From Chondrosia reniformis (taxonomy: Eukaryota > Porifera > Demospongiae > Chondrillida > Chondrillidae), in the NCBI GenBank assembly GCA_947172415.1, contig OX359201.1, positions 248,001 to 312,000 on the forward strand: DNA of 64,000 nucleotides, written 5' to 3'. Shown here in pieces: positions 4,766 to 51,735 of this stretch. A model generated the notes under the pieces. That model ran no database searches and was not told where the DNA came from. It saw only the letters and a program-made list of their open reading frames with translations. The translations under genes and the position numbers were made by a program. The stretch's first letter is position 1, and each line of letters opens with the position of its first letter.

Positions 4766-5096
4766 CACACACCATCTGGTCCAGCGCGAACTGTTTCGGC
4801 GATTTTAGATAGAATTATATAAGAGCAAAGTGATCCGCCATTTGTAATGACATCATTCCTTGCGCGTTACATACGTATTGCATTGCGTATGGGCCTGCAT
4901 TGCAGCCTAATTGTTATTATGTAGTTGAAGGTACGTGAGAGCGATAGCATTAAAAGCATACCAATTCATAAAACTTCTATTATCATTATATTAAAGAATT
5001 TACATTGTTTAAAAATGACAAAATTAATGGAATAAAATAAATGGATGACACTGGTGACTCTAACAGACGTGCTTAGATTGGGCAGTAGATGCAGCA
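4766..5096 (-). promoter_or_regulatory. Probable EXD3 promoter region with TATA-like box
   Basis: Spacer between the EXD3 start codon and the minisatellite. On the minus strand a TATATAA-type motif lies at about 4814-4822, some 50 bases before the ATG. Similar TATATAG or TATATAA motifs sit at the same place before the EXD3-N exons near 34270, 44965 and 60998. The region is otherwise AT-rich with no open frame. Promoter role is inferred from position and conservation among copies. Confidence 0.35.
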
Positions 5097-5372
5097 GACG
5101 AGGAGTGACGTAGCAGGTGAGGAGTGACGCAGCAGGTGAGGATTGACGTAACAGGTCAGGAGTGATGTAGCAGGTGAGGATTGACGTAACAGGTCAGGAG
5201 TGACGTAGCAGGTGAGGAGTGATGTAGCAGGTGAGGATTGACGTAACAGGTCAGGAGTGATGTAGCAGGCGAGGAGTGACGTAGCAGGTGAGGATTGACG
5301 TAGCAGGTGAGGATTGACGTAGCAGGTGAGGATTGACGTAGCAGGTGAGGATTGACGTAGCAGGTGAGGATT
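5097..5372. repeat. 19-bp minisatellite (unit GTGACGTAGCAGGTGAGGA), about 14 units
   Basis: Tandem units of about 19 bp, most with TGACGTA (close to a CREB/ATF half-site) and CAGGTGA (an E-box core). It lies about 330 bp upstream of the EXD3 start and just after the DEATH remnant of the GTPase gene. The array is open in several frames, so it makes long spurious ORFs; these are not genes. The same array occurs at 17618, 34592, 45232 and 61281. Confidence 0.95.
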
Positions 5373-5481
5373 GAGGTGGCTGGACAGGATTGATGTAGTA
5401 GATTTATAAATGTTACTCAATCCCGAGATGATGACCAAAGTCCATCCAATTAGGAGACAATTCATTACAATTAACTAACTT

Positions 5482-12753: not shown

Positions 12754-12809
12754 TCTTAGGATTGCTGACTTCCTGTTCTGGGTCATCACTGAGCTTCAGA
12801 GAACTACCT
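12754..12809 (-). pseudogene. Linker-exon relic upstream of GTPase 2 with lost splice donor
   Basis: The minus strand keeps the 18-residue linker seen at 9176-9124, 37619-37567 and 48805-48753 (here SSLKLSDDPEQEVSNPK) with its AG acceptor. The donor that follows in paralogues (AAG/GTATAT or AAG/GTACAG) reads AAG/AGATTT here, and the intron behind it is shortened. This exon can no longer splice normally to the GTPase exon. Confidence 0.6.
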
Positions 12810-14319: not shown

Positions 14320-15412
14320 TTATGTACTTTGTTTCCTCAGTTCTTCAGCCACGTCTCTACACCTGCTATCCTCGAGTGCCTTACAGAGAACTGAATATGT
14401 CACTGGTACAGTTCTATTATGGAGGACTCCATTTCCATTGTACCAGTCCTGCAAGCCATACATGAACCTATTTCCTAGAGCTCCAGCAGTGCCAAGAGGG
14501 TAGGTTAGTTCAGCCTCTCTGAGCATTGCCTCACTGACCCCTAATCGTCTACAGATCCCATCTGAGTGACTTATTGCTCCAGAGTCTGCCACATACTGGA
14601 GGTCTAGGATGGTCGGCTTCACTGGCTTGACCTCTTCTACAGGCAGAGAAAAACAGAGTATAAAAACAATCTTTTTAGAGAGTAATATATTCTTGCATCT
14701 CCAAATTAACCATTCGTATGCCCAAAATCAAATTAGACTCACTTAGACCAGGAGTAACAGTAGGAGTAGAGGTAGGGATAGGAGGATGTGTTCCTGGACA
14801 TATATAAAAAGGTAACATTTATGACCATCATGACGGGAATCGTTAATAGTCTGGTCTCTATATAATGCTCCACAACTCCCTTAGACTAGACGTATGTATA
14901 ATGAAATTTAAACATCTCAAGTTCACACCTTGCTTAGCAATGGTGAGGTTACCTAGCAATGTCTGGAATTAACAGAAACCCAGTGCTACTGAAAAGTGGT
15001 GGTATTCCACGAAAAGGCCTTCTAGTACATTTTGGAAATTTTTGCACCTTTCGTTTACTAAGGAATACTGATCATCATATTCATACCCACCTGATGTGGT
15101 ATCTTTGAGAGACAAGAAATCTTCAATAACCTCTGCAAACGTCTTATTCGGGTTTATACTATCAGGAGCTTCCTTTAGTACTTTAGCAGCTGCTTCAAGT
15201 GTCTTTGAAGCTGGGTCACTGCGGAGGAACTGGTAGAACAGGTTATTTGCAGCAGCTGTATCCGAAGCATTGTCCAACCGTTCTCTCTGTCCTTGAGATA
15301 TGACACGCCCATGCTCAAGATCAGAACATATTACTTTAACATTACAGTGCTTTATATGACTATCCTTGTGTTTCCACAGGAATTCAATGATCTCATCTGG
15401 ACTCTTTTCCAT
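14320..15412 (-). CDS. Small CARD-DEATH adaptor-like gene
   Basis: Three exons with matching phase-1 joints: CARD exon 15414-15091 (ATG 15412-15410), a Pro/Thr linker exon 14793-14743 (PPIPTSTPTVTPGL), and a DEATH-like exon 14636-14320 ending in a stop. The CARD-like part (SPDEIIEFLWKHKDSHIKHC to NKTFAEVIEDFLSLK) spans about 100 residues. The DEATH-like part has DGICRRLGVSEAMLREAE and YSVLCKALEDSRCRDVAEEL. Total about 230 residues. N-terminal CARD plus C-terminal DEATH is the layout of CRADD/RAIDD adaptors, but the sequences look more like the local paralogues (compare 45566-45979), so it may be a shortened relative of the GTPase genes and not a true CRADD orthologue. The linker intron holds the second 151-bp repeat. 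An exon further upstream cannot be excluded, as the first exon has an acceptor two bases before the ATG. Confidence 0.6.
14875..15025. repeat. 151-bp direct repeat, copy 2
   Basis: Second copy of 14022-14172, about 850 bp away in the same orientation, inside an intron of the CARD-DEATH gene. It differs from copy 1 at a few positions near its left end. High identity implies recent duplication. Confidence 0.85.
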
Positions 15413-16924: not shown

Positions 16925-17341
16925 GAGGCACTAGAATGTAAAGTGCTCCCGAACCTGCAGCTTCATTGCATAAAGAGCTGCCTCCTTGAAGGCCTCTCCA
17001 CTGGACAAGGTACACCTCACAGCATCAACACGATCAGGTAGGGGAGCTTCTGGTAACTGGAACACTTTGATAATGTCATCAATGTAGTGAGGGAGAAGGG
17101 TGGGGATTAAATAGAGTACTTGCTGCTGACACTCGCTTGGAACACTATGGATTTTCACAATCTCTGCAAACTGGCCCAACACAGCTCGAGGCAGACAGTG
17201 CTGTCCTTTCAGTCCTCCTCTTCCGCTGTACCTCACTAAATACACCAGAAAGTGGTAGGGAAAGAGACACTGTCTTAAGGTGTCTCTGATCTCAGAGCGG
17301 ACCTCGGGAGAAGGAAGGTTCTTGTGGGACAACCACAGCTT
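16925..17341 (-). pseudogene. Relic of the EXD3 N-terminal exon
   Basis: Encodes the helical core of EXD3-N (KKLWLSHKNLPSPEVRSEIR to ALYAMKLQVREHF) in one open frame, with neither start codon nor splice donor. Both ends break off: upstream, the Ser-rich lead and ATG are missing; downstream, the DKVNVIEWYLSGQPLL part is missing. It still lies beside a 19-bp minisatellite and a DEATH terminal exon, as in the complete modules. This marks it as the remnant of a whole module. Confidence 0.8.
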
Positions 17342-17617
17342 GTAATGACATCATTCTTTATGGAGTGATTGTACATTTTTGATGTATATATACATATGCA
17401 TGTCACATACATGCTGTACCTTGTAACATTAATTGTATATAGTTGAGGTAGATAGTACTAGCACATGCAGCTTTAAGCAAATTTTATATCAATTCATAAA
17501 ACTTACATTATCATCATATTAAAAAATTTACATTGTTAAAAAAATGACAAAACTAATGGAATAAAATAAATGGATGATATTGGTGACTCTGAGGGACGTG
17601 CTTAGATTGGGCAGTAC

Positions 17618-17998
17618 ATGCAGCAGATGAGGAGTGACGTAGCAGTTGAGGAGTGACGTAGCAGTTGAGGAGTGATGTAGCAGTTGAGGAGTGATGTAGC
17701 AGGTGAAGATTGACGTAGCAGGCGAGGAGTGACGTAGCAGGCGAGGAGTGACGTAGCAGATGAGGAGTGACGTAGCAGTTGAGGAGTGACGTAGCAGTTG
17801 AGGAGTGATGTAGCAGTTGAGGAGTGATGTAGCAGGTGAAGATTGACGTAGCAGGCGAGGATTGACGTAGCAGGCGAGGAGTGACGTAGCAGGCGAGGAG
17901 TGACGTAGCAGGCGAGGAGTGACGTAGCAGGCGAGGATTGACGTAGCAGGCGAGGAGTGACGTAGCAGGCGAGGAGTGACGTAGCAGGTGAGGATTGA
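17618..17998. repeat. 19-bp minisatellite, about 20 units
   Basis: Same family as 5097-5372, here with many GCAGGCGAGGA and GCAGTTGAGGA variants, arranged in a higher-order block that repeats once. It lies immediately 3' of the ankyrin gene's stop and upstream of the EXD3-N relic. Confidence 0.95.
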
Positions 17999-18095
17999 GG
18001 TGACTGGTGATTGATGCAGTAGCTGGATCTATAAATGTTACTCAACCCCAAGGTGTTGACCAAAGTCCATCCAATTAGGAGACAATTCATTACAA

Positions 18096-21000
18096 TTAAC
18101 TAACTTTCTTTGATTTAATTAATTTAGTAGCAACTTCATGAAATCCACTATCTTTCAATGCAGTAGTAAGCTTGAACAACGTAGCTTCATCTCCTTGTTC
18201 ATTCCTCCATGATGCCAAGGATTGGAAGAAGGCTTCAGATGGTCCATTTGGTATTCCAGTCACATGTGCTGTTTCTGATTGTGCAATGACATCACCACTA
18301 ACTCCTAAACGTCTGCACACTCCCTTCCACTTCTGAACTGCTTCAGAGTCGGCTACATCTTGAAGTTGAACAGTTGTCACTCTTCTTCTTAAAAAGAAAT
18401 CCATAATCTCCTTTGATATCACTCTTCTTAAGAGATCATCATCTACAATAATTATAAGAATTCTTTATTAATAATACTGATACTTAATACTGATTGAAAG
18501 TAATGTGAGAGTCTCCCACCCACTCCAGAAGCGTTATCACCTCGCATAGTGTATAAACGCTTTAAATCGTTCGCAACTACATTTTAAAATAGGCATTAAG
18601 TTGTTAGGTGTAATAGTATTAAATGATGACCCTTTAAAACCTTTTAAAACGGTCGCTATCACTAGTGACTTGATCAATCTTTGGACCTCTGTCCTGAGGG
18701 CCTGTACTTATCAGAGAGTACGGTAGTACTCTCTATGTAGGGATGGTACGGGTTGTTTCGTTTTCCCCATACATTGGTATAGGAGCGAAATTCCGAATTA
18801 GGCTGAAAATCGCCAAAACGAGACTATGTAGAGTTGAATATAGAACAAACATGCTATAAATTGGCCTTGAAGGCAAGCGACCGTGTATCGTTGGCAAACG
18901 AACGAACTTTGAAAACTCCCATTTTCGTTTTCTTCTTCATCTTCTTCTTCTTCATCTTCTTCATCTTCTTCGCCCGCTGTAACTAAAAAACGAAATAAGC
19001 CTTCGGACTACTTCTTAATCGAAATTACTCTAAATTTTCCGAGCTGTATTCTTTTGTAGAAGCGAGAGCGATAACGCTATTATTGAGTATGACAGTTTTC
19101 ATGGCTCAAGAGTCAAGACCTCAATAAATTCGCCATTTTAATGACGTCATAATCAGTCGAAGATTGCAAAACCAAAGTGGTTTAAAATACAACGAATTCT
19201 TAGCTTATGCTCCATAAAAAGTACAGAAACTAGAGAACAATAAAAATTTTCTACAAAAATAGTGAAGATGTAGGGATGGCACAAAAAGCATAGAAACAAG
19301 AAAGGGATGTTACACAGTGAAGCATTAGCTATGCATGAATCCTACAAGCAAGGGTGTTGTATGATTCGTGCATATATAGCTAATGCTTCACTGTGTAACA
19401 TCCCTTTCTTGTTTCTATGCTTTTTGTGCCATCCCTACATCTTCACTATTTTTGTAGAAAATTTTTATTGTTCTCTATACGTGATATATACAACATGTGT
19501 ATATGCAGTAAGAGTGCATATAATACAGAAATGTTCTGTTAAGCAACTGACCAGAAATGTGTTGTTCCTCGATCTGTTCCACCAACTGAACAAAGGTTTC
19601 ATCATCATAAGAAAATTCCTCCAGCTACAATAGAAACGATATAAAATTGGTTGAACTGATACACAAAATTGTCATTATCAGAGAAAACTAGTCACAATTG
19701 CAAAATTATTTGTATAAACATATGTTGCACTGTATTAAAAGTTATTTAATATAATATAAAACTTCAATGCAACAGGTACATATATCATACTTCAAATTAA
19801 TGAGGATGTTTTACATTATTATGTTTTTGATTACTAAATGACTTGCCTGGAATCTGCTAGTGTCAATATTACTGAGCCAAATTTCTTCTATTGTCAAGAG
19901 GTCTTTTCTTTTTTCTTTGAAAGTGCATTCTTTTTCTCTACCTACAAACACCATCAAATGATCTGGCAAAGGAGGGTCATGAGTTATTTGACATGGAAAA
20001 CCTTGCTGAAGAGAAGCTATTCCCTTAGAGGATGTACCAGAGGATTTACGAGAGGTTTCACTGGTTTCCCCTAAAAATGTATCTCCAAAGACTTTCTTGC
20101 TGACATATAACAGCCTTGTTTTTATTTCTTGACCTACTTCCATGACAGCTTTGCAAATTTGAGCAACGTCCCCAAGTGATTTCTTTACAAGCAGACAAAC
20201 TTCAAAATGACCTTCTTTCAGGATGAGGAAAACAGTTCTGCGATCACCCACAAACTTCAAATTTCTGTTATTAGACTCTGCAAATCTTGGTTCCCAATTT
20301 TGAAAAGCAATACCTTCCTCAGGTTCTCTATTACTGATTACATCAACAGCCAATCTGTGAAATAGTCCAGTTGGTAGACAGTAACTTTTAACGTCATTAT
20401 CATTTGAGAACTGAAACGTAAAGCCGAGGTTAACAACACTGCTCTTATGGGGCAACTTTGTTTTAGCTGTTTCAGCTGTTAGAGCAAGTGGAATGTAAAA
20501 GAGTTTCTCTTTAGATGCAGCAAGTCCAAAGTGCTCTAACATGGCAAGCATCCATGGCATTGCTGGTACCACATCTGGGTGGATTTTAAGCCAATCTGCA
20601 AACTCCTTCTTTTTGAAACCATCTACATTTATTTTGGCACTTTCCCAGTAATAACAGCATTGAGGATCAAAGGGCTTACGATCATTGGAATAGTGTACTG
20701 TGAGCAGTTTGGACACTTTTTCATAAAAGAATGTAGCATCTGTGCACACCCAACTGTCACTCCCTGTCAACTTTGTCAGTTTGGGATGATACACATAAAA
20801 CCCAAGGCATCGGAAAAGGTGCAGGAAAGCGATAAATTTAGCATCTGTTGCATTTTGAGTGACTCTGAAAAACAAGCTCTTCAAGTCTTCATATTTCCAT
20901 AGAAATCTTTTTTCGGTCTCTATGTAATGGAATACTAGCATGTGAAACACAAACCAGGCCTTTGGTACTGGCAGCTGGAGACCTGCCTCTTCTTTAGACA

Positions 21001-24000
21001 GGTGGCTGCGCAGGAGGTTAACCATTCGTTTTGACTCCTCGTTCTCCTCTTCTGTTCCAACTAAGTGGCTGTCTAAGAGATAGTATATTTGTTGGTTCGG
21101 ATCAGGATAGCATAATTTCATTTCATATGGCTTGTTTTTCAACCTAATATCTATAGTTTTAGTGTTTTTATCCTCCATATCTGCAGCTTTACTGCTTCCC
21201 AATTTGATTAATTCATTCCTATGGGTGCCAACTAAGAAGAGACAGAGAGGTGGTCTCTTTGCTTCTTGTAGTTCTGAAGAGCATTTGAGTGACATTGTGT
21301 ATGCTGCAGTGAGGGACTGCTCCATCAGGTCTATACTAGACTGGGTGTTTTCTTGCTCAATATCATCTTGCCCATCAGGATTGTGTGCATTGACGTATGG
21401 AGCTGTGAGATCCCCAGATGACTTGAAGACCTGCACAAAATTGCATGGAAAGTCAAGCAGGAGTGGTAGAGCATTCTGAAAGGCAGGCTGGCCTCCTGTG
21501 TCCAGGAGGAATACAAACGTTTGGTCCTCGATACTCATTTCTTCTTCACTCCCCAGCTTCTCAATGATATTTGCAACGGCTGCTTCAATATTGCCTCCAG
21601 CATTGGATGATTCTACCTCACCTGTATCCATTTCTGACTCCTCAATGTCATTTTCACCTGTTTTATCTGGAACATTATCTATGTCCGTTGTCAAGTTCTT
21701 ATCCTCTTTAAAGCCACTCGTTTTTGGCAAAGTGTGAGTAGAAATGTTTTGACTGCCTTCAGTGTCTCCTATGTTCATCTCATGTTCGCTAGTTTTAAAT
21801 GATTCCACCTTACCTGTATCCGTCTGTGACCCCTCAATATCATCTTTAGAGCCACCTGTGTTCGCTGCCTTCTCAATTTGCCCCAGCTTTAAATTAATTC
21901 TGGTGTCCATCTCCTTATTAGTTTCAGATAAGTCTACATTTTGTGCACTATATAGATATTTACTAAATTCATCGTCACTTAATACGCTCCAAAGGGTATA
22001 CGATTCCCCTTCTCCAACGGTTTTAATTGCCTTCATCACAGTTGCCACTTTTACCTTTTCCATCAGTGGAGTGCTTTGTTTGTCTTCTCTCACCTCGTTG
22101 AAGAGCAAGATGTAAATGAGCGAGGATTTACCCGTTCGAGAGGAACCAGTGAACACATTTCTGATCACTTTTAGATTAACAGTTCCAGACACTGATAATT
22201 CATTCTCATGTTCCTTTTGGACCTCCTGTATAATATAGGACAAATGATGCAGTTACTCTGGTTAATCAACTGACTGTACGTATGTATATAGGTATACATA
22301 TATATGGTTGATTTAAATTCTCTTCTATCTATAACATGCATTTTGTGGGTAATAAATAAATGTAAGAATACAACACTGTACATATATACCTTAAGATTTT
22401 TGACTTCATGTTCTGAGTCATCACCTTGCACTCCTTTGTCTCTTCCACTTGTGTGTTCCCCACTCAACATCTTCTCCATTTCACTGGCAAGCTGATCAAA
22501 TCCACTCTTCTTTAGAGCTGTTAGGACAGATTTCCATGTTCTGGGAAGATCTCCAGTGTCTCCTTCTCTTGACAGCCATCTTGCACTCAGCTTATTAAAA
22601 CATCTCCTCCATATTGCTTCATCACCCCCACCATCTGAGGCAGTCTGTTTCACATCTCTCTCTATCCTCTTCAGAAGGGACATCTCAACTCCAAGGTGAT
22701 GACCAAAGTCCATCCAATTAGGAGACACTTGATTACAGACTAGTTCATCCAGTAAATCTGGAGTTGGTGTTGATGTTATTCCTAAATGTAATAGAGGAAC
22801 TGTACATGATGGTTGTTTATACAATTAAGCTAACAAAAATATTGAAAGAGGTAGCAAATATCACTATCATGCATGCATATGTATTTCTCAACTAACAGAG
22901 AGATTGCTACACTGTAATTGAGTCTCTAACGAAACTCAGTGTATACGTACCTTCAGGAGAATGTTCAGTGACTGATGTTTGATTCATTTGTTTCAAAACT
23001 GGTACACAATCTTGTGATAGACTCCAGTCATAGAAGAACTCTGACAGCGGAATAGAAGTTATATCTTCACTTCCGTATGGAACCACTGCAGTTCCACCTT
23101 TCTCTACAGTCTTAATGATAGAAGACACAGCAGCTTGTACTCCACTTGGGATGCCACTCTTGACCTTTACCAGAACAGACACAGTCTTCATGTTGGGACA
23201 GTGATGTTCTTTCATTTTCATCACCTCTTGGATGACCTTAGGAGCTTCCTTCATTAGTGGGTCCATCCCATTTCGGCTGCGAACTAATACTTGAACAGTT
23301 GCTTTACTCGTAAAGGTTTGAACTTGAAAATCAATTCCATGTACAGTGGACCAGAAGATCCCATTCTTCCACACAGTACAGGAGTGCTGAAGGACCTGGC
23401 TCTCTTGGTCATCTATCACATTTTGGACAAACTTGTGAGCAAGTCTTAGGAAAATTGAGTGTTGGAATCGCGGAGAGAGGAATGGATATTCAAATCCTCT
23501 CAACTCCCAACACAACCAAACACAACTTTGTACATCTGATGGAGATGAACCAAATGGATTTGATGGAGTGTCTTGGCTAACTAATGATGGGAAATATAAC
23601 CATTCATCTTGGGTAGCTAACAAAGACCTAATTTCATCTCTGAGAAGATTACTGTCTACTGGATGACAGAATTCCATGGATAGCAACAATTCCTTTATCA
23701 GTTTAGGACTTAAATTACTACCTTCAAATGCTTGATCCAGTTCATTGGAAAGAACAAGTCCAAACTTGTTAGCAAGGTCCTTGTGATGCATGGGAAACTC
23801 ATCCGATTCAGGAGCAAACAGTTTACCATGAATATCAGTAATTACTTCCTGAATCTCCAGGATGAGCCAACCATCCTCTAATGTCTCCTTATTTGGAAGA
23901 TATATGGCAAGTCCGGCAGAAGAAAGGTCTTGACAACACTCATGAATGAGAGAGATTGTATAAGGAGAAGAAAGAGTTTGTAAGATGTTGCTTAATTGTA

Positions 24001-27000
24001 CAAATCTCTGATGTTGTACTTTCTTCCAAAAAAGGCAAGCACGGAGTGGTACTTGTGAAACTATACTTTCTGTTGCCTGACTAGCTAGTGATTGTCTGTT
24101 ATAGCTTTTAAAGTAATTGTTTAACTGTTGAAGGCCTTGTGAAGACAGTTTTCTACAGTCCATTGACAAACAATCCATAAATTCTATATTACTGTGAATG
24201 AAATTAGATTTCAGTTCCTGAAAACAGTTGGAATGGGAATCAGTGATTTCTAACTTCCTTTTGGAAGGAACATCATCCAAATGACTGCCAATTAGAATTA
24301 CACGAATCTGCACATTTGAAGTACAAATTGATGGAATAGGAGACAACCATTCCATACACTGGTCTACCCTTTCCTTATAAGGAATCCTCAGGTCTACTAC
24401 CATCAGGAATGTGATGATGGTTCCTCTTGAAGACAAAGCAGCTTCCAGAAAGGCATAATGAGAAGAATAGTATTCTGATTGACCAGCAAAATTGAAGAAA
24501 AGCATTCTACCATATTTCTCATCATCCAAAGTTTTAACATCAATACCAGCAGTTCTGTTGGTAATATTCTGAACATTATGAATTCCTTTGAACATGTAGT
24601 CTTTTGTTGACCCTCTAATTGCTTCAACAAGTGTGGACTTACCAGCTTTCGGATGCCCAATAACACAAACCATTCTACGACTCTCAAGTGAAAGATGATT
24701 TTTGACTGATTGCAATAATTGGTCACTAGCCAAGTCAGCAAATGTCTTCCCATCTTCATCTTGTGCATCACGGTCAGCTCCAGCTTCAAGTAGCATCAAA
24801 GGGATAGTTGGATTGTCACTCCCTGTAGAAAGGTGTAGAGCTGTTCTACCATTTTTATCTCTCAGGTTCACCTCACAATTCTTTGATATTAAATTCTTAA
24901 CTGTTGATGTATGACCATTCATACCTGCAATCATTAATGCCGTCTGTTGGTTTAAATTGGGCACATTCACATTACATTTTTTTTCTATCAGCATTTGAGC
25001 TATTTCCCATCTATTTTTCTTGGTAGCTAAAAGTAGTGCAGTGTCGCCATTCTTATCTACAACATTTACATCACAATCTTTTTCTATCAAACATTTGACT
25101 AATTCAAAGTGACCAGCATCTGCAGAATAATGTAGAGCTGTTCTTTCTCTATCATCTTTCAAGTTCACCTTACAACCTGCTTGTAATAAACACTTGACTG
25201 CATCAGCCTTACCCTTCTCTACAGCTATCAATAATGCTGTCTGGAGTGACTTGTTGGGAGCATCCACTTGACAACCTGCCTTAATTAATAATTGAATAAT
25301 TTCTAAATGACCCTTCTCTGCAGCTTTGTGTAGTGCAGTTTCATCTCTAGAGTTCACAGCATCCACCTGACACCCTTTTTCTAATAGACAATTTACCAGT
25401 TCAGTGTTTGCATTTAAAGAAGCAAGTAATAAAGTGCCCTTGTCATTAAGGAAAGCTACATCCACCTTACAACCTGCCTTTATTAGCCAATTGACTATTA
25501 TAAAATGACCTTCCCTGACTGCTTTATGCAGTGCAGTCTCACCTACTTCATCTTCAACATTCATATCACAACCTATTCCTATTAGGAATTTGATTATTTG
25601 AATATGACCAATTTTGGAGGCTATCATTAATGCTGTCTGTCTCTTGAAATTAACTTCATTAATCTTACAACCTGCGTTTACTAGTAAATGAACTATTTCC
25701 AAATGGCCTACCTGTGTTGCTTTATGCAGTGCAGTCTCACCTACTTTATCTCCAACATCCTTATTGCAACCAACTTTTAACAAGCATTCAACTAGTTCAG
25801 TGTTCCCATGAAATGCAGCTTTTAGTAAAGTGCCCTTGTCATTAAGGAAAGCTACATCTACCTTGCAACCTGCCTTAATAAGCAAATGGACTATTTCCAA
25901 ATGGCCTCCCTCTACTGCTTTTTGCAGTGCAGTCTCACCTACTTTGTTGAAAACATTCACAACTTCTAACAAGCATTTGACTAGTTCAGTTTTCCCATGA
26001 AATACAGCTTTTAGTAAAGTGCCCTTGTCATTAAGGAAAGCTACATCCACCTTACAACCTGCCTTAATAAGCAAATGGACTATTTCCAAATGACCTCTCT
26101 CTACTGCTCTATGTAGTGCAGTGTCACCTACTTGGTTGACAACATTTACATTACAACCTGCCTTAATAAGCAAATGGATTATTTCCAAATGGCCTCCCTC
26201 TACTGCTCTATGTAGTGCAGTGTCACCTACTTTGTTGACAACATTCACATTACAACCAACTTTTTGTATTAAACATTTAACTAATTCAGTGTTTCCATGA
26301 AATGCAGCATTTAGTAAAGTACACTTGTCATTAAGGAAAGCTACATCCGCATTACAACCTGCCTTAATAAGCAAATTGACTATTTCCAAATGGCCTCCCT
26401 CTACTGCTTTATGTAGTGCAGTCTCACCTACTTTGTTGACAACATTCACATTGCAACCAGCTGATATTAGGAGTTTAACTATTTCAATCTTATTATAAGT
26501 AGAGGCTATCATTAATGCTGTCCTTCCATGAACATTAACTGCATCCACATTACAACCTGCCTTAATAAGCAAATGAATTATTTCCAAATGGCCTCCCTCT
26601 ACTGCTTTATGTAGTGCAGTCTCACCTACTTTGTTGACAACATTCACATTGCAACCAACTGATATTAGGAGTTTGACTATTTCAATCTTATTATAAATAG
26701 AGGCTATCATTAATGCTGTCCTTCCATGAACATTAACTGCATTCACATTACAACCTGCCTTAATAAGCAAATGAATTATTTCCAAATGGCCTCCCTCTAC
26801 TGCTATATGTAGTGCAGTTTCACCTACTTTGTCTTCAACATTCACATTACAACCAACTGATATTAGGAGTTTGACTATTTCAATATCATTATAAGTAGAG
26901 GCTATAATTAATACTGTCCTTCCATCAACATTAACTGCATCCACATTACAACCTGCCTTAATAAGCAAATGGATTATTTCCAAATGGCCTCTTTCTACTG

Positions 27001-27154
27001 CTCCATGTAGTGCCGTATAACCAATATCATCTTGTGCACCCAACCAATCAGAACCCGTTAAGTTCCTGTGGCTTTGTAGTATCCTTCTTACATCTTGAAT
27101 ATCTCCTCTTCTACAGGCACTGATTAACTCTCTAATGTCAGCAGAGCTAGACAT
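18096..27154 (-). CDS. Giant ankyrin-Roc-COR-DEATH-GTPase-DEATH protein gene
   Basis: Exons: 27154-22951, 22781-22390, 22225-19847, 19624-19552 and 18442-18096 (stop). Every joint is phase-compatible (EG/ITS phase 1; NLK/EVQ phase 0; IS/G phase 1). The first exon (about 1400 residues) has about 24 ankyrin repeats (GETALHKAVEGGHLEIIHLL type). A Roc GTPase follows (GHPKAGKST, FFNFAGQSEYY, IGSHLDD), then a COR region (EWLYFPSLV). The second exon is a DEATH domain (SPNWMDFGHHLGVEMSLLKR). The third is a second, different GTPase (GSSRTGKS, LLDTGGQ, VGTHRNE). The last is DEATH (EAVQKWKGVCRRLGVSGDVI). In total about 2470 residues. Start: ATG at 27154; an upstream TTG frame is ignored. Ankyrin-Roc-COR-DEATH resembles the non-kinase half of DAPK1. 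Splicing of both halves into one mRNA is inferred; two adjacent genes or alternative 3' ends remain possible. The intron before the last exon carries a 746-bp Helitron-like insertion. Confidence 0.72.
18731..19476 (-). mobile_element. Helitron-like non-autonomous element in an intron of the ankyrin gene
   Basis: Reverse-oriented copy. The 3' hairpin GAGAGTACggtaGTACTCTC lies at the left (18731 onward, beginning TCAG) and the hairpin-forming 5' end lies at the right. The empty site can be read at 10020-10060, where gggcctgtacttat runs straight on into gtgatatatac; here the same flanks are about 750 bp apart. CTGA at the end followed by a host T fits Helitron rules (CTRR, A/T target), but no TC start is evident. 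It has no transposase. Confidence 0.6.
19232..19476. repeat. Near-perfect 245-bp foldback (stem about 115 bp)
   Basis: Left arm 19232-19346 starts agagaacaataaaaatttt; right arm about 19361-19476 is its reverse complement, ending aaaatttttattgttctct. About the outer 100 bp pair almost perfectly, the inner part with a few mismatches, leaving a loop of about a dozen bases. The 40- and 50-kb copies of the element have only one arm. If transcribed within the intron, it would make a long double-stranded RNA hairpin. Confidence 0.9.
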
Positions 27155-27562
27155 GTAACGGACTGGAAACTGATGTATGAGCAAGCGATTCTAAAATAGA
27201 AAAAGGACATTTTTGCATGAACTACTACTGTAACATAAGTAAACTATTGATTATTTGGTGACATCTTTTATGCTGTTACAATGAGGTACGTATGTAGCTT
27301 GAAAGTATTGCAAACATATACGTACGTACGTATAGTACTACTAGTACTTTCTAATCATTGTCTCCAACTCACTAAATTTCACAACAAGGTGTAAAACACA
27401 GAAGTGTATATAGAAAGCTTTCTCAAGGAATATTGAAGCGCTTCTGATCTCACTTTCTTTAGAAAACTCGGCTATTTCGCATGGTGTGATGCTAATTTTA
27501 GACCAACCGATATGGGGTGATCAACTATATTAAGAATTGACCAAATTTGGAATGATTATATA
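27155..27562. promoter_or_regulatory. 5' flank of the ankyrin gene
   Basis: An AG acceptor (ttttag) about 38 bases before the ATG suggests a non-coding first exon further upstream. The stretch is AT-rich with a (gtac)n-like run near 27322-27332. From about 27465 it holds one copy of the 150-bp interspersed repeat (catggtgtgatgctaatttt) that is interrupted by the element at 27563. Confidence 0.4.
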
Positions 27563-39753: not shown

Positions 39754-40402
39754 GTTAGCCTCCCAATTCTAAGTATATATATACACATATATATGTAGAA
39801 GAGTTAGACAGTACAGTGCAATCTGCTAACAATCAAATATATAGTGTTTTCTGAAAATGTCATGTTTCTTCAAGCACATCTACAAAAATAACATGGCTAC
39901 CTTCCTTAGAGAAGGGCAAGACTGCCATGCACCTATAAATGGAAATCAGGACCGAATACTTGGAATCATTCGTATACAAGCTTGTACCCTCAAGCGCAAT
40001 ATTGTTTTCGAGACCATATTTCCGTTCACTGATTGATCACTGGATTCCAAATAAAGGCATAGTATGGAAACGTAAATTATCGCGGCCGAAAAATGATTTA
40101 CCAAAGAGCAGTGGGGCTGGTAGGGTTTAATAGTCAATACTTCAAGTTTCAGACACATTTTAAAGGAGACATGTATAGCTATATATGAAGGAGATTTGGT
40201 GGACATCCTTCGATATTCCACTTGATTACAGTGCTTTGACCTAATATCGATCATATCGGCCGAAAATATCGATTTTCAGCCACCCTCTTCAATCGTCTCT
40301 AGCGCAAAGATGCCATGAGATAGAAATTCCTGATTGCGCACACTATGTTCTCCCAGAAAGGCCTGTGTTATGATGTTTATTTAAAGTTTATAGCTTTCGT
40401 AC
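39754..40402. other. 5' flank of GTPase 3
   Basis: Nearly identical to 49925-50590, so it belongs to the recent module duplication. It contains ctataaatgg near 39931 on the plus strand and a conserved 63-codon plus-strand frame (39939-40130) that exists in both copies only because the copies are almost identical. I do not call it a gene. A putative first exon of GTPase 3 ends at 39723. Confidence 0.5.
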
Positions 40403-41032
40403 ATGAATCATACAACACCTTTGCTTGTAGGATTCATGCATAAATAATTCTTCACTGTGTAACATCCTTTTCTTGTTTCTGTGCTTTTTGTGCCATCCCT
40501 ACATCTTCTACTATTTTTGTAGAAAATTTTTATTGTTCTCTAGTTTCTGTACTTTTTATGGAGCATAAGCTAGGAATTAGATAATATACAATTTTTGGTT
40601 TCGCAATCTTCGACTGAACATGACGTCATTAAAATGGCGAATTTATTGAAGCCTTGACTCTTGGGCCACGAAAACCGTCATGCTCAATAATAACGTTATC
40701 GCTCTCGCTTCTACAAAAGAATACAGCGCGGAAAATTCGGAGTATTTTCGCTTAAGAAGTAGCCCGAAAGCTTATTTTCTTGTTTAGTTACAGCGGGCGA
40801 AGATGAAGAAGAAAACGAAAATGGGATATTTCAAAGTTCGTTCATTTGCTAGCGGAACACGGTCGCTTGCCTTAAAGGCCAATTTATAGCATGGCTGGTC
40901 TATTTTTAACTATACATAGCCTTTTTTCGGCAGTTTTCAGCCTATTTCGGATTTTTACTCCTATATCAATGTATAGGCAAAACGAAACAACCGGTACCAT
41001 CCCTACATATAGAGTACTACCGTACTCTCTGA
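40403..41032 (+). mobile_element. Helitron-like non-autonomous element
   Basis: Forward copy. From its 5' side it has a short loop region (catgaatcatacaac, 40403), one arm of the foldback seen at 19232, an internal region with tgacgtcattaaaatggcg and a gaagatgaagaag tract, and the 3' hairpin AGAGTACtaccGTACTCT followed by CTGA and a host T. Nearly identical to 50591-51230, with which it was duplicated as part of the module. Confidence 0.62.
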
Positions 41033-41178
41033 TAATCAGCTCTAGCTCCAAGAAGGATGTCATATTGATCGCTTAGCATGACTGATTCACTTACGGACGT
41101 ATCATTGCTGGCCATTAGGACTACAGAACATCAAATCGATCCAACTAACTGATGAGCACAGAAGAATCACTTTCACTT

Positions 41179-50590: not shown

Positions 50591-51230
50591 CATGAATCAT
50601 GCAACACCTTGCTTGTAGGATTCATGCATAAATAATTCTTCACTGTGTAACATCCTTTTCTTGTTTCTGTGCTTTTTGTGCCATCCCTACATCTTCTACT
50701 ATTTTTGTAGAAAATTTTTATTGTTCTCTAGTTTCTGTACTTTTTATGGAGCATTAGCTAGGAATTAGATAATATACAATTTTTGGTTTCGCAATCTTCG
50801 ACTGATTATGACGTCATTAAAATGGCGAATTTATTGAAGCCTTGACTCTTGGGCCACGAAAACCGTCATGCTCAATAATAACGTTATCGCTCTCGCTTCT
50901 ACAAAAGAATACAGCGCGGAAAATTCGGAGTATTTTCGCTTAAGAAGTAGCCCGAAAGCTTATTTTCTTGTTTAGTTACAGCGGGCGAAGATGAAGAAGA
51001 AGATGAAGAAAACGAAAATGGGATATTTCAAAGTTCGGCTATGTATAGTTAAAAATAGACCAGCCATGCTATAAATTGGCCTTTAAGGCAAGCGACCGTG
51101 TTCCGCTAGCAAATGAACGATTTTTCGGCAGTTTTCAGCCTATTTCGGATTTTTACTCCTATATCAATGTATAGGCAAAACGAAACAACCGGTACCATCC
51201 CTACATATAGAGTACTACCGTACTCTCTGA
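50591..51230 (+). mobile_element. Helitron-like non-autonomous element with internal inversion
   Basis: Copy of 40403-41032, sharing both flanks. Segment 51038-51120 is reversed relative to the 13.7-, 18.7- and 40.4-kb copies. Ends with AGAGTACtaccGTACTCT then CTGA and a host T. Confidence 0.62.
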
Positions 51231-51735
51231 TAATCAGCTCTAGCTCCAAGAAGGATGTCATATTGATCGCTTAGCATGACTGATTCACTTACGGACGTAT
51301 CATTGCTGGCCATTAGGACTACAGAACATCAAATCGATCCAACTAACTGTTGAGCACAGAAGAATCACTTTCCTTAAAACTGGGCGTTTTCGCATGGCGC
51401 GATGCTAATCTTAGACCGACCCATATATGGGGTGCAACTATATTAAGAATTTACCAATTTTGGAATGATTATTTGCATAAATACCCATTTTAAATACAGA
51501 TATAATCTTTGTCTTTTTTATTAATGGTGGAGGTACTCTAATTGGTGCACACTAACAGAGTTTGCCAGCTTCATTACACATAAATGTAGAGCCTGATGCT
51601 ATTTGTTGAATGTCACATGTGCATGTGCAGAGAATCGCAATAGTAGTGATCACATACAGACAACCATTATATATTATTATTATCCTTTATTAACTGTGCC
51701 CAAGGCAAATCAAAAGAAATAGCTATGGTCAACCA
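51231..51735. other. Spacer 3' of CD225-like copy 3
   Basis: Contains the 150-bp interspersed repeat (51376-51520), a stub of the fusion terminal exon (51525-51552), and the 3' flank of the CD225-like gene. Closely matches 41033-41515 and 15790-16230. Confidence 0.6.

Follow-up and report, generated by a model that had tools for sequence, protein, structure and literature searches.

The window, a stretch of 64,000 nucleotides from the sponge Chondrosia reniformis (contig OX359201.1, positions 248,001 to 312,000), carries on its minus strand five exons between 27154 and 18096 that join into 2,464 codons and one stop codon, with no internal stop. Positions are those of the window, and the exons are listed in reading order:

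Exon A, 22951..27154, minus strand: 4,204 nt; about 24 ankyrin repeats, then Roc GTPase and COR by profile comparison; donor in phase 1.
Exon B, 22390..22781, minus strand: predicted DEATH domain and linker; phase 1 in, phase 0 out.
Exon C, 19847..22225, minus strand: second, divergent Roc-like GTPase with a COR-like part; open in phase 0.
Exon D, 19552..19624, minus strand: 73 nt; phase 0 in, phase 1 out; behind a GC-AG intron.
Exon E, 18096..18442, minus strand: about 20 codons from the start of a CARD-like exon, joined to a DEATH domain; carries the stop codon.

Exon A lies inside a stop-to-stop open reading frame of 1,427 codons and exon C inside one of 813; since the longest such frame in 50 shuffles of the window measured only 215 codons, frames of this length are not due to chance. 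Exon A ends at a phase 1 GT donor (GAAG/GTACGT), exon B is entered at an AG acceptor in phase 1 and left in phase 0 (AAG/GTATAT), and exon C continues in frame; the introns between them span 169 bp (A–B) and 164 bp (B–C). These splice sites and phases agree with the original prediction, as does its figure of about 2,470 intact codons; exons D and E, the GC-AG intron and the stop codon were absent from its exon listing. The donor of the C–D intron, CAG/GCAAGT at 19846, starts with GC in one paralogous copy too (C1, below) and reads CAG/GTAAGT in another (C2). Within the D–E intron, 19477-19231 matches its own reverse complement (93%), and the element 19477-18708, with related copies near 40402-41035 and 50591-51233, is probably a mobile element. 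An acceptor-like site lies upstream of exon A, at 27191.

The predicted number of 24 ankyrin repeats in exon A proved a fair count, with 22 repeats scored by consensus and about two degenerate ones recognised by eye (residues 1–827). The array (27022-25261, minus strand) has a period of 198 bp, the length of two ankyrin repeats, is 77% alike over 1.6 kb and contains single pieces up to 93% alike; by this periodicity, it is an array expanded by pairs of repeats. It is followed by the GTPase motifs G1 (GHPKAGKST, 833), G3 (NFAGQ, 888) and G4 (GSHLD, 956). The Pfam Roc model matched exon A at 9e-6 with 26.4 bits, 0.6 bits short of the cut-off of 27, and comparison with the LRRK2 Roc chains in PDB gave a best E of 1.3e-4. 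No LRR, kinase or NACHT match was found in exon A with Pfam.

Because Pfam reported no COR in exon A, even when the COR part was searched alone, we built a profile of bacterial Roc-COR sequences. It comprises 45 segments from 50 loci (L120–L169) that were picked up by the Pfam COR-A model, drawn from 8 of 13 genomes reached via mostly cyanobacterial loci and from 27 of 194 genomes of the same phylum. In profile–profile comparison, exon A matched it with a probability of 96.4 and an E of 1.1e-9 over positions 14–457. The COR part alone (residues 201–586) scored 28.4, a value reached by none of 60 shuffles if the score is, as we assume here and below, independent of the mact setting, which differed between some of the observed alignments and the shuffles. 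With HMMER and 17 bacterial Roc-COR sequences, exon A reached 24.4 bits, and 100 shuffles of exons A and C stayed at or below 3.6. By profile comparison, the GTPase of exon A is thus a Roc domain with COR directly after it. No relatives of this Roc-COR part were found in the viral_contigs or plasmids searched, and a single-sequence AlphaFold model of it was unusable (mean pLDDT 35.6).

Exon C carries the GTPase motifs in the expected order, with G1 (GSSRTGKS) at residue 27, G3 (DTGGQP) at 242 and G4 (GTHRN) at 334 in exon numbering. It belongs to a family of five copies in the window, two of them broken, found by tblastn; the exon C copy of the five-exon set is called C3 here, and the other four, with their linker exons (B'), lie as follows:

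C1, 6563..8944, minus strand: open.
C2, 10450..12654, minus strand: open; usual donor of its B' deleted.
C4, 35118..37375, minus strand: frameshifted.
C5, 46246..48561, minus strand: frameshifts and a stop at the P-loop.
B' of C1, 9124..9176, minus strand: linker exon; phase 1 in, phase 0 out.
Other B', starting at 12807 (C2), about 37618 (C4) and about 48806 (C5), minus strand: linker exons.

With four further local copies, the second GTPase is ruled out as a one-off. The THRN noted at its G4 is confirmed and occurs in all five copies, which share 91.6–93.4% pairwise DNA identity over exon C. The insert between G1 and G3 is long and variable in length, so that G1 and G3 are 215 residues apart in C3 and 157 in C2.

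The affinity of exon C is more distant. The Pfam Roc model matched at 0.056 over the whole exon and at 0.0088 over a sub-sequence, both under the cut-off, and the HMMER search with the 17 bacterial sequences gave 0.0 bits, not above the shuffles (best 3.6). In profile–profile comparison the whole exon scored 38.1, reached by none of 60 shuffles, in an alignment that covers only the P-loop region. Without the P-loop the score was 27.3 (0 of 60 shuffles), and residues ~418–627 aligned in the register expected of COR with a score of 26.6 (1 of 60); with a thinner profile, the score of the COR part was reached by four of 60 shuffles. Pfam returned neither COR nor NACHT in exon C, exon C and the Roc-COR of exon A showed no tblastn match and a profile comparison probability of 0.5, and neither the sequence nor the exon C alignment had a meaningful match in PDB. 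No relatives of exon C were found in viral_contigs, and none of the 452 pattern matches that its alignment gave in genome_contigs was confirmed. An AlphaFold model from three alignment rows was unusable (mean pLDDT 28.6). On these comparisons, exon C is a Roc-like GTPase with fair support; for its COR part, and hence for full Roc-COR identity, the scores are suggestive. A receptor of the NLR/STAND type with a NACHT domain was considered and rejected: neither exon A nor exon C contains NACHT, and an nSTAND3 match to part of C4 (0.032) stays under the cut-off.

The five GTPase units carry varying mixes of exon D, CARD-like exons and DEATH exons, together with a 19-bp minisatellite and a fivefold repeated stretch (both described below). 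Pfam CARD scored 0.019–0.11 on three CARD-like neighbour exons, below the cut-off, for which reason the label "CARD" is tentative; on the CARD-like exon at 15412 it gave no match up to 0.05. The two DEATH domains of the original prediction both hold, at different strength. The domain in exon E is clear (Pfam 2e-7, over the cut-off). In exon B, Pfam DEATH scores 0.0056, under the cut-off, and a local DEATH model built from six DEATH domains of the same window gives 12.0 bits, which none of 200 shuffles reached (best among the 161 listed, 8.8); by this weak evidence, exon B is a DEATH domain.

Exon B is where the two halves of the locus meet. The C3 unit becomes homologous in DNA to the other units at 22424, a point within exon B. 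The part of exon B upstream of this position is the DEATH domain; downstream, the 3' tail of the exon (DDSEHEVKNLK, 22390..22424, minus strand) is homologous to the linker B' found ahead of the GTPase in those units. Tail and donor are common to the B' of C1, C4 and C5, and C2 has a B' that lacks the usual donor. At a blastn limit of E 1e-6, no second copy of exon A or of the DEATH body of exon B was found in the window, apart from a 54-bp fragment of that DEATH domain. Copies of that fragment, 89–93% alike, sit out of use behind the terminal DEATH of three units (18094-18041, 5469-5416 and 61437-61384, minus strand).

From this distribution of homology, chimeric exon B is best read as the footprint of a gene fusion within an exon, with its breakpoint at about 22424. 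A single join of an ankyrin-Roc-COR-DEATH gene to a B' would explain the whole pattern in one event: the gene would have joined, with the frame kept, one of the genes of the local tandem death-fold/GTPase family, and the DEATH exon would have kept its own acceptor and gained the linker, the donor and the following introns of the GTPase gene. In an unrooted tree C4 and C5 group together (99%), and C3 and C1 are separated from C2, C4 and C5 (57%); the fusion is most simply assigned to the branch of C3, provided that this branch does not hold the root. Tandem units this alike over exon C are also the usual setting for a misjoin, so that an assembly or haplotype chimera could have attached the ankyrin gene to the wrong repeat of the array. 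We regard such an artefact as very improbable, because exact identity between the junction region and the corresponding sequence of the four other units never runs beyond 17 bp and no N occurs in the window; the join is, moreover, in frame.

The original prediction had argued for a single protein from matching phases. Its gene structure is sound and one protein is still the best reading, although the argument has to change. The death-fold cassettes joined in this analysis are entered in phase 1 anyway, which makes phase matching weak support, and we dropped it as proof of one gene since a second chain of phase-1 cassettes in the window (15412-5717, below) also joins in frame. Chimeric exon B is the better evidence. 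We consider it reasonably probable that 27154-18096 is one real fused gene, and infer a single transcript from the following observations together with the chimeric exon. No ATG precedes the P-loop in the exon B tail plus C3, where the first Met comes after 65 residues, nor in the B' of C1 plus C1, where it comes after 71; exon C therefore needs an upstream coding exon, and the nearest is exon B. The introns A–B and B–C contain neither AATAAA nor ATTAAA.

The same observations bear on a reading with two genes, in which an ankyrin-Roc-COR(-DEATH) gene ends in the A–B or B–C intron and a separate GTPase-DEATH gene follows. None of the other four GTPase copies of the window has ankyrin-Roc-COR in front, and because a frame continued past the exon A donor runs into a stop after at most 44 nt, a short form limited to ankyrin-Roc-COR may be made. 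Exon B moreover holds in-frame ATGs at 22713, 22683, 22479 and 22470 (frame assigned by hand), from which a GTPase without the whole DEATH domain could start. Such a downstream gene would, however, need a promoter inside exon A, inside exon B or inside an intron of 169 or 164 bp, and the chimeric make-up of exon B, the lack of a poly(A) hexamer in both introns and the absence of any ATG before the P-loop in the exon B tail plus C3 all speak against it; we hold two genes to be unlikely.

A fused gene may also be a decaying one, with join and frames real and no functional protein made. C1, C2 and C3 are open and C4 and C5 are broken, and pairwise dN/dS is 0.57 (C3/C1), 0.69 (C3/C2) and 0.79 (C1/C2), with 1.05 for C1/C2 over the last 572 codons. 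Such values are near enough to 1 for weak constraint, at best, or decay to be possible. Exon E is itself a deletion product in which the start of a CARD-like exon is joined to DEATH. Against a dying locus stand the 2,464 codons, still open through the chimeric joins in both exon B and exon E and with a GC-AG intron, and we judge it quite improbable. The fused gene accordingly remains our preferred reading, and the surrounding array offers a possible second case.

On the minus strand, 15412-5717 can be read as a chain of 11 exons that joins in frame over 2,062 codons, in the order CARD-linker-DEATH-B'2-C2-D2-CARD2-B'1-C1-D1-CARD1. The first cassette holds the start and leaves in phase 1. This chain depends on one cryptic donor, several donors chosen by the analyst and a last exon read through its donor to the stop, and it stands as a candidate for a second double-GTPase gene.

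The window contains further repeats and genes. One stretch occurs five times on the minus strand (4285-3844, 17341-16922, 33752-33311, 44429-43990 and 60703-60263), with copies 91–92% alike to that at 17341 and no Pfam match of its own. At 4804-1112 the neighbouring exons encode a Mut7-C RNase domain and match a 3'-5' exonuclease weakly, and the stretch is for this reason probably part of an exonuclease gene with a Mut7-C domain. A 19-bp minisatellite, open in several frames, lies behind two units (4954-5443 and 17502-18048), the two places within the part of the window searched. Four repeat-rich proteins with PEPQPV-like motifs (28989-28231, 31737-30544, 53393-52584 and 56211-55060, minus strand) have no Pfam match over a cut-off, and three of them end in a hydrophobic stretch.

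How might a fused protein of this kind work? By extrapolation from other Roco proteins, a ligand would bind to the ankyrin array, and the two GTPase modules of the chain could associate with each other as an integral, unequal pair, whereas the GTPase module of an ordinary Roco protein must find its partner in another molecule. Ligand binding by the ankyrin repeats and the nucleotide state of the pair would expose or hide the two DEATH domains, and once exposed these could nucleate a death-fold signalling complex. The G3 aspartate is replaced by N in the first module (NFAGQ) and the G4 aspartate by N in the second (THRN); changes at G3 and G4 are expected to affect GTPase function. Because the modules lack the G3 and the G4 aspartate, respectively, a plausible idea is a division of labour in which one half would be mainly regulatory. 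A bacterial Roco protein is mostly a dimer when nucleotide-free or bound to GDP and becomes monomeric on binding GTP (PMC5714945). As a tentative proposal, which we would sooner doubt than accept, each chain could contain two complete Roc-COR modules with complementary G3/G4 defects, making the Roco dimer cycle intramolecular and placing it between two DEATH domains. If this were true, the 15412-5717 chain would be a second, ankyrin-free double-GTPase protein of the same kind (CARD-DEATH-GTPase-CARD-GTPase-CARD), and the double-GTPase arrangement would be a recurrent product of the array.

Roco proteins attract interest since LRRK2 and DAPK1 belong to them, and it is still debated whether they act by a monomer–dimer switch. 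A chain with two Roc-COR modules, if present, would be a natural covalent dimer on which to test this. The locus also shows, step by step, a way in which a tandem array of phase-1 death-fold cassettes may give rise to new sensor proteins, by in-frame joins inside exons.

DAPK1 has a kinase domain and ankyrin repeats ahead of its Roc-COR. Of the three groups into which Roco proteins are divided, the DAPK1 group carries a death domain (PMC6337361), and the fused gene resembles it in having Roc-COR followed by a death domain, without LRR; DEATH domains are present behind Roc-COR here in exon B (below the Pfam cut-off) and exon E (2e-7). It differs in its array of about 24 ankyrin repeats, in the additional GTPase and DEATH domain that follow the first ones, and in the lack of a kinase in the open frame, which starts with ankyrin repeats. 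The absence of a kinase covers exon A, and a coding exon may lie upstream, at the acceptor-like site. Bacterial LRR-Roc-COR proteins are alike in that exon A aligns with them over both Roc and COR, and exon C weakly so; they differ by their LRR, for which exon A has no match.

Among sponges, Amphimedon has expansions of TRADD-N/death-fold proteins with ankyrin repeats (PMC8195603), a similar case of death-fold domains and ankyrin repeats being recombined within one lineage. Those proteins are TRADD-N, whereas Pfam found no TRADD-N in exons A, B, C and E, and the sections of that report covered here describe no sponge Roc-COR proteins. For Dysidea avara, a figure legend on NLRs names a COR domain (PMC12909245).

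In Trichoplax, at least 17 Roco genes occur with CARD, death, TPR and LRR domains, and at least three Roco proteins have a Ras-like domain N-terminal to Roc (PMC4104024). Roco proteins with CARD or death domains, and others with two GTPase domains each, are thus already known, and with five local copies of the second GTPase the original view of a combination foreign to described families holds only in part. Searches of the mainly open-access literature, by titles and abstract openings, returned no protein with two Roc-COR modules; the "two Roc" of PMC6337361 are the two protomers of a dimer. Whereas the extra GTPase of Trichoplax is Ras-like and precedes Roc, that of Chondrosia is Roc-like, possibly with COR, and follows Roc-COR-DEATH. 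The locus is, on this comparison, a fusion of two known kinds, in a combination that is new as far as the literature was searched.
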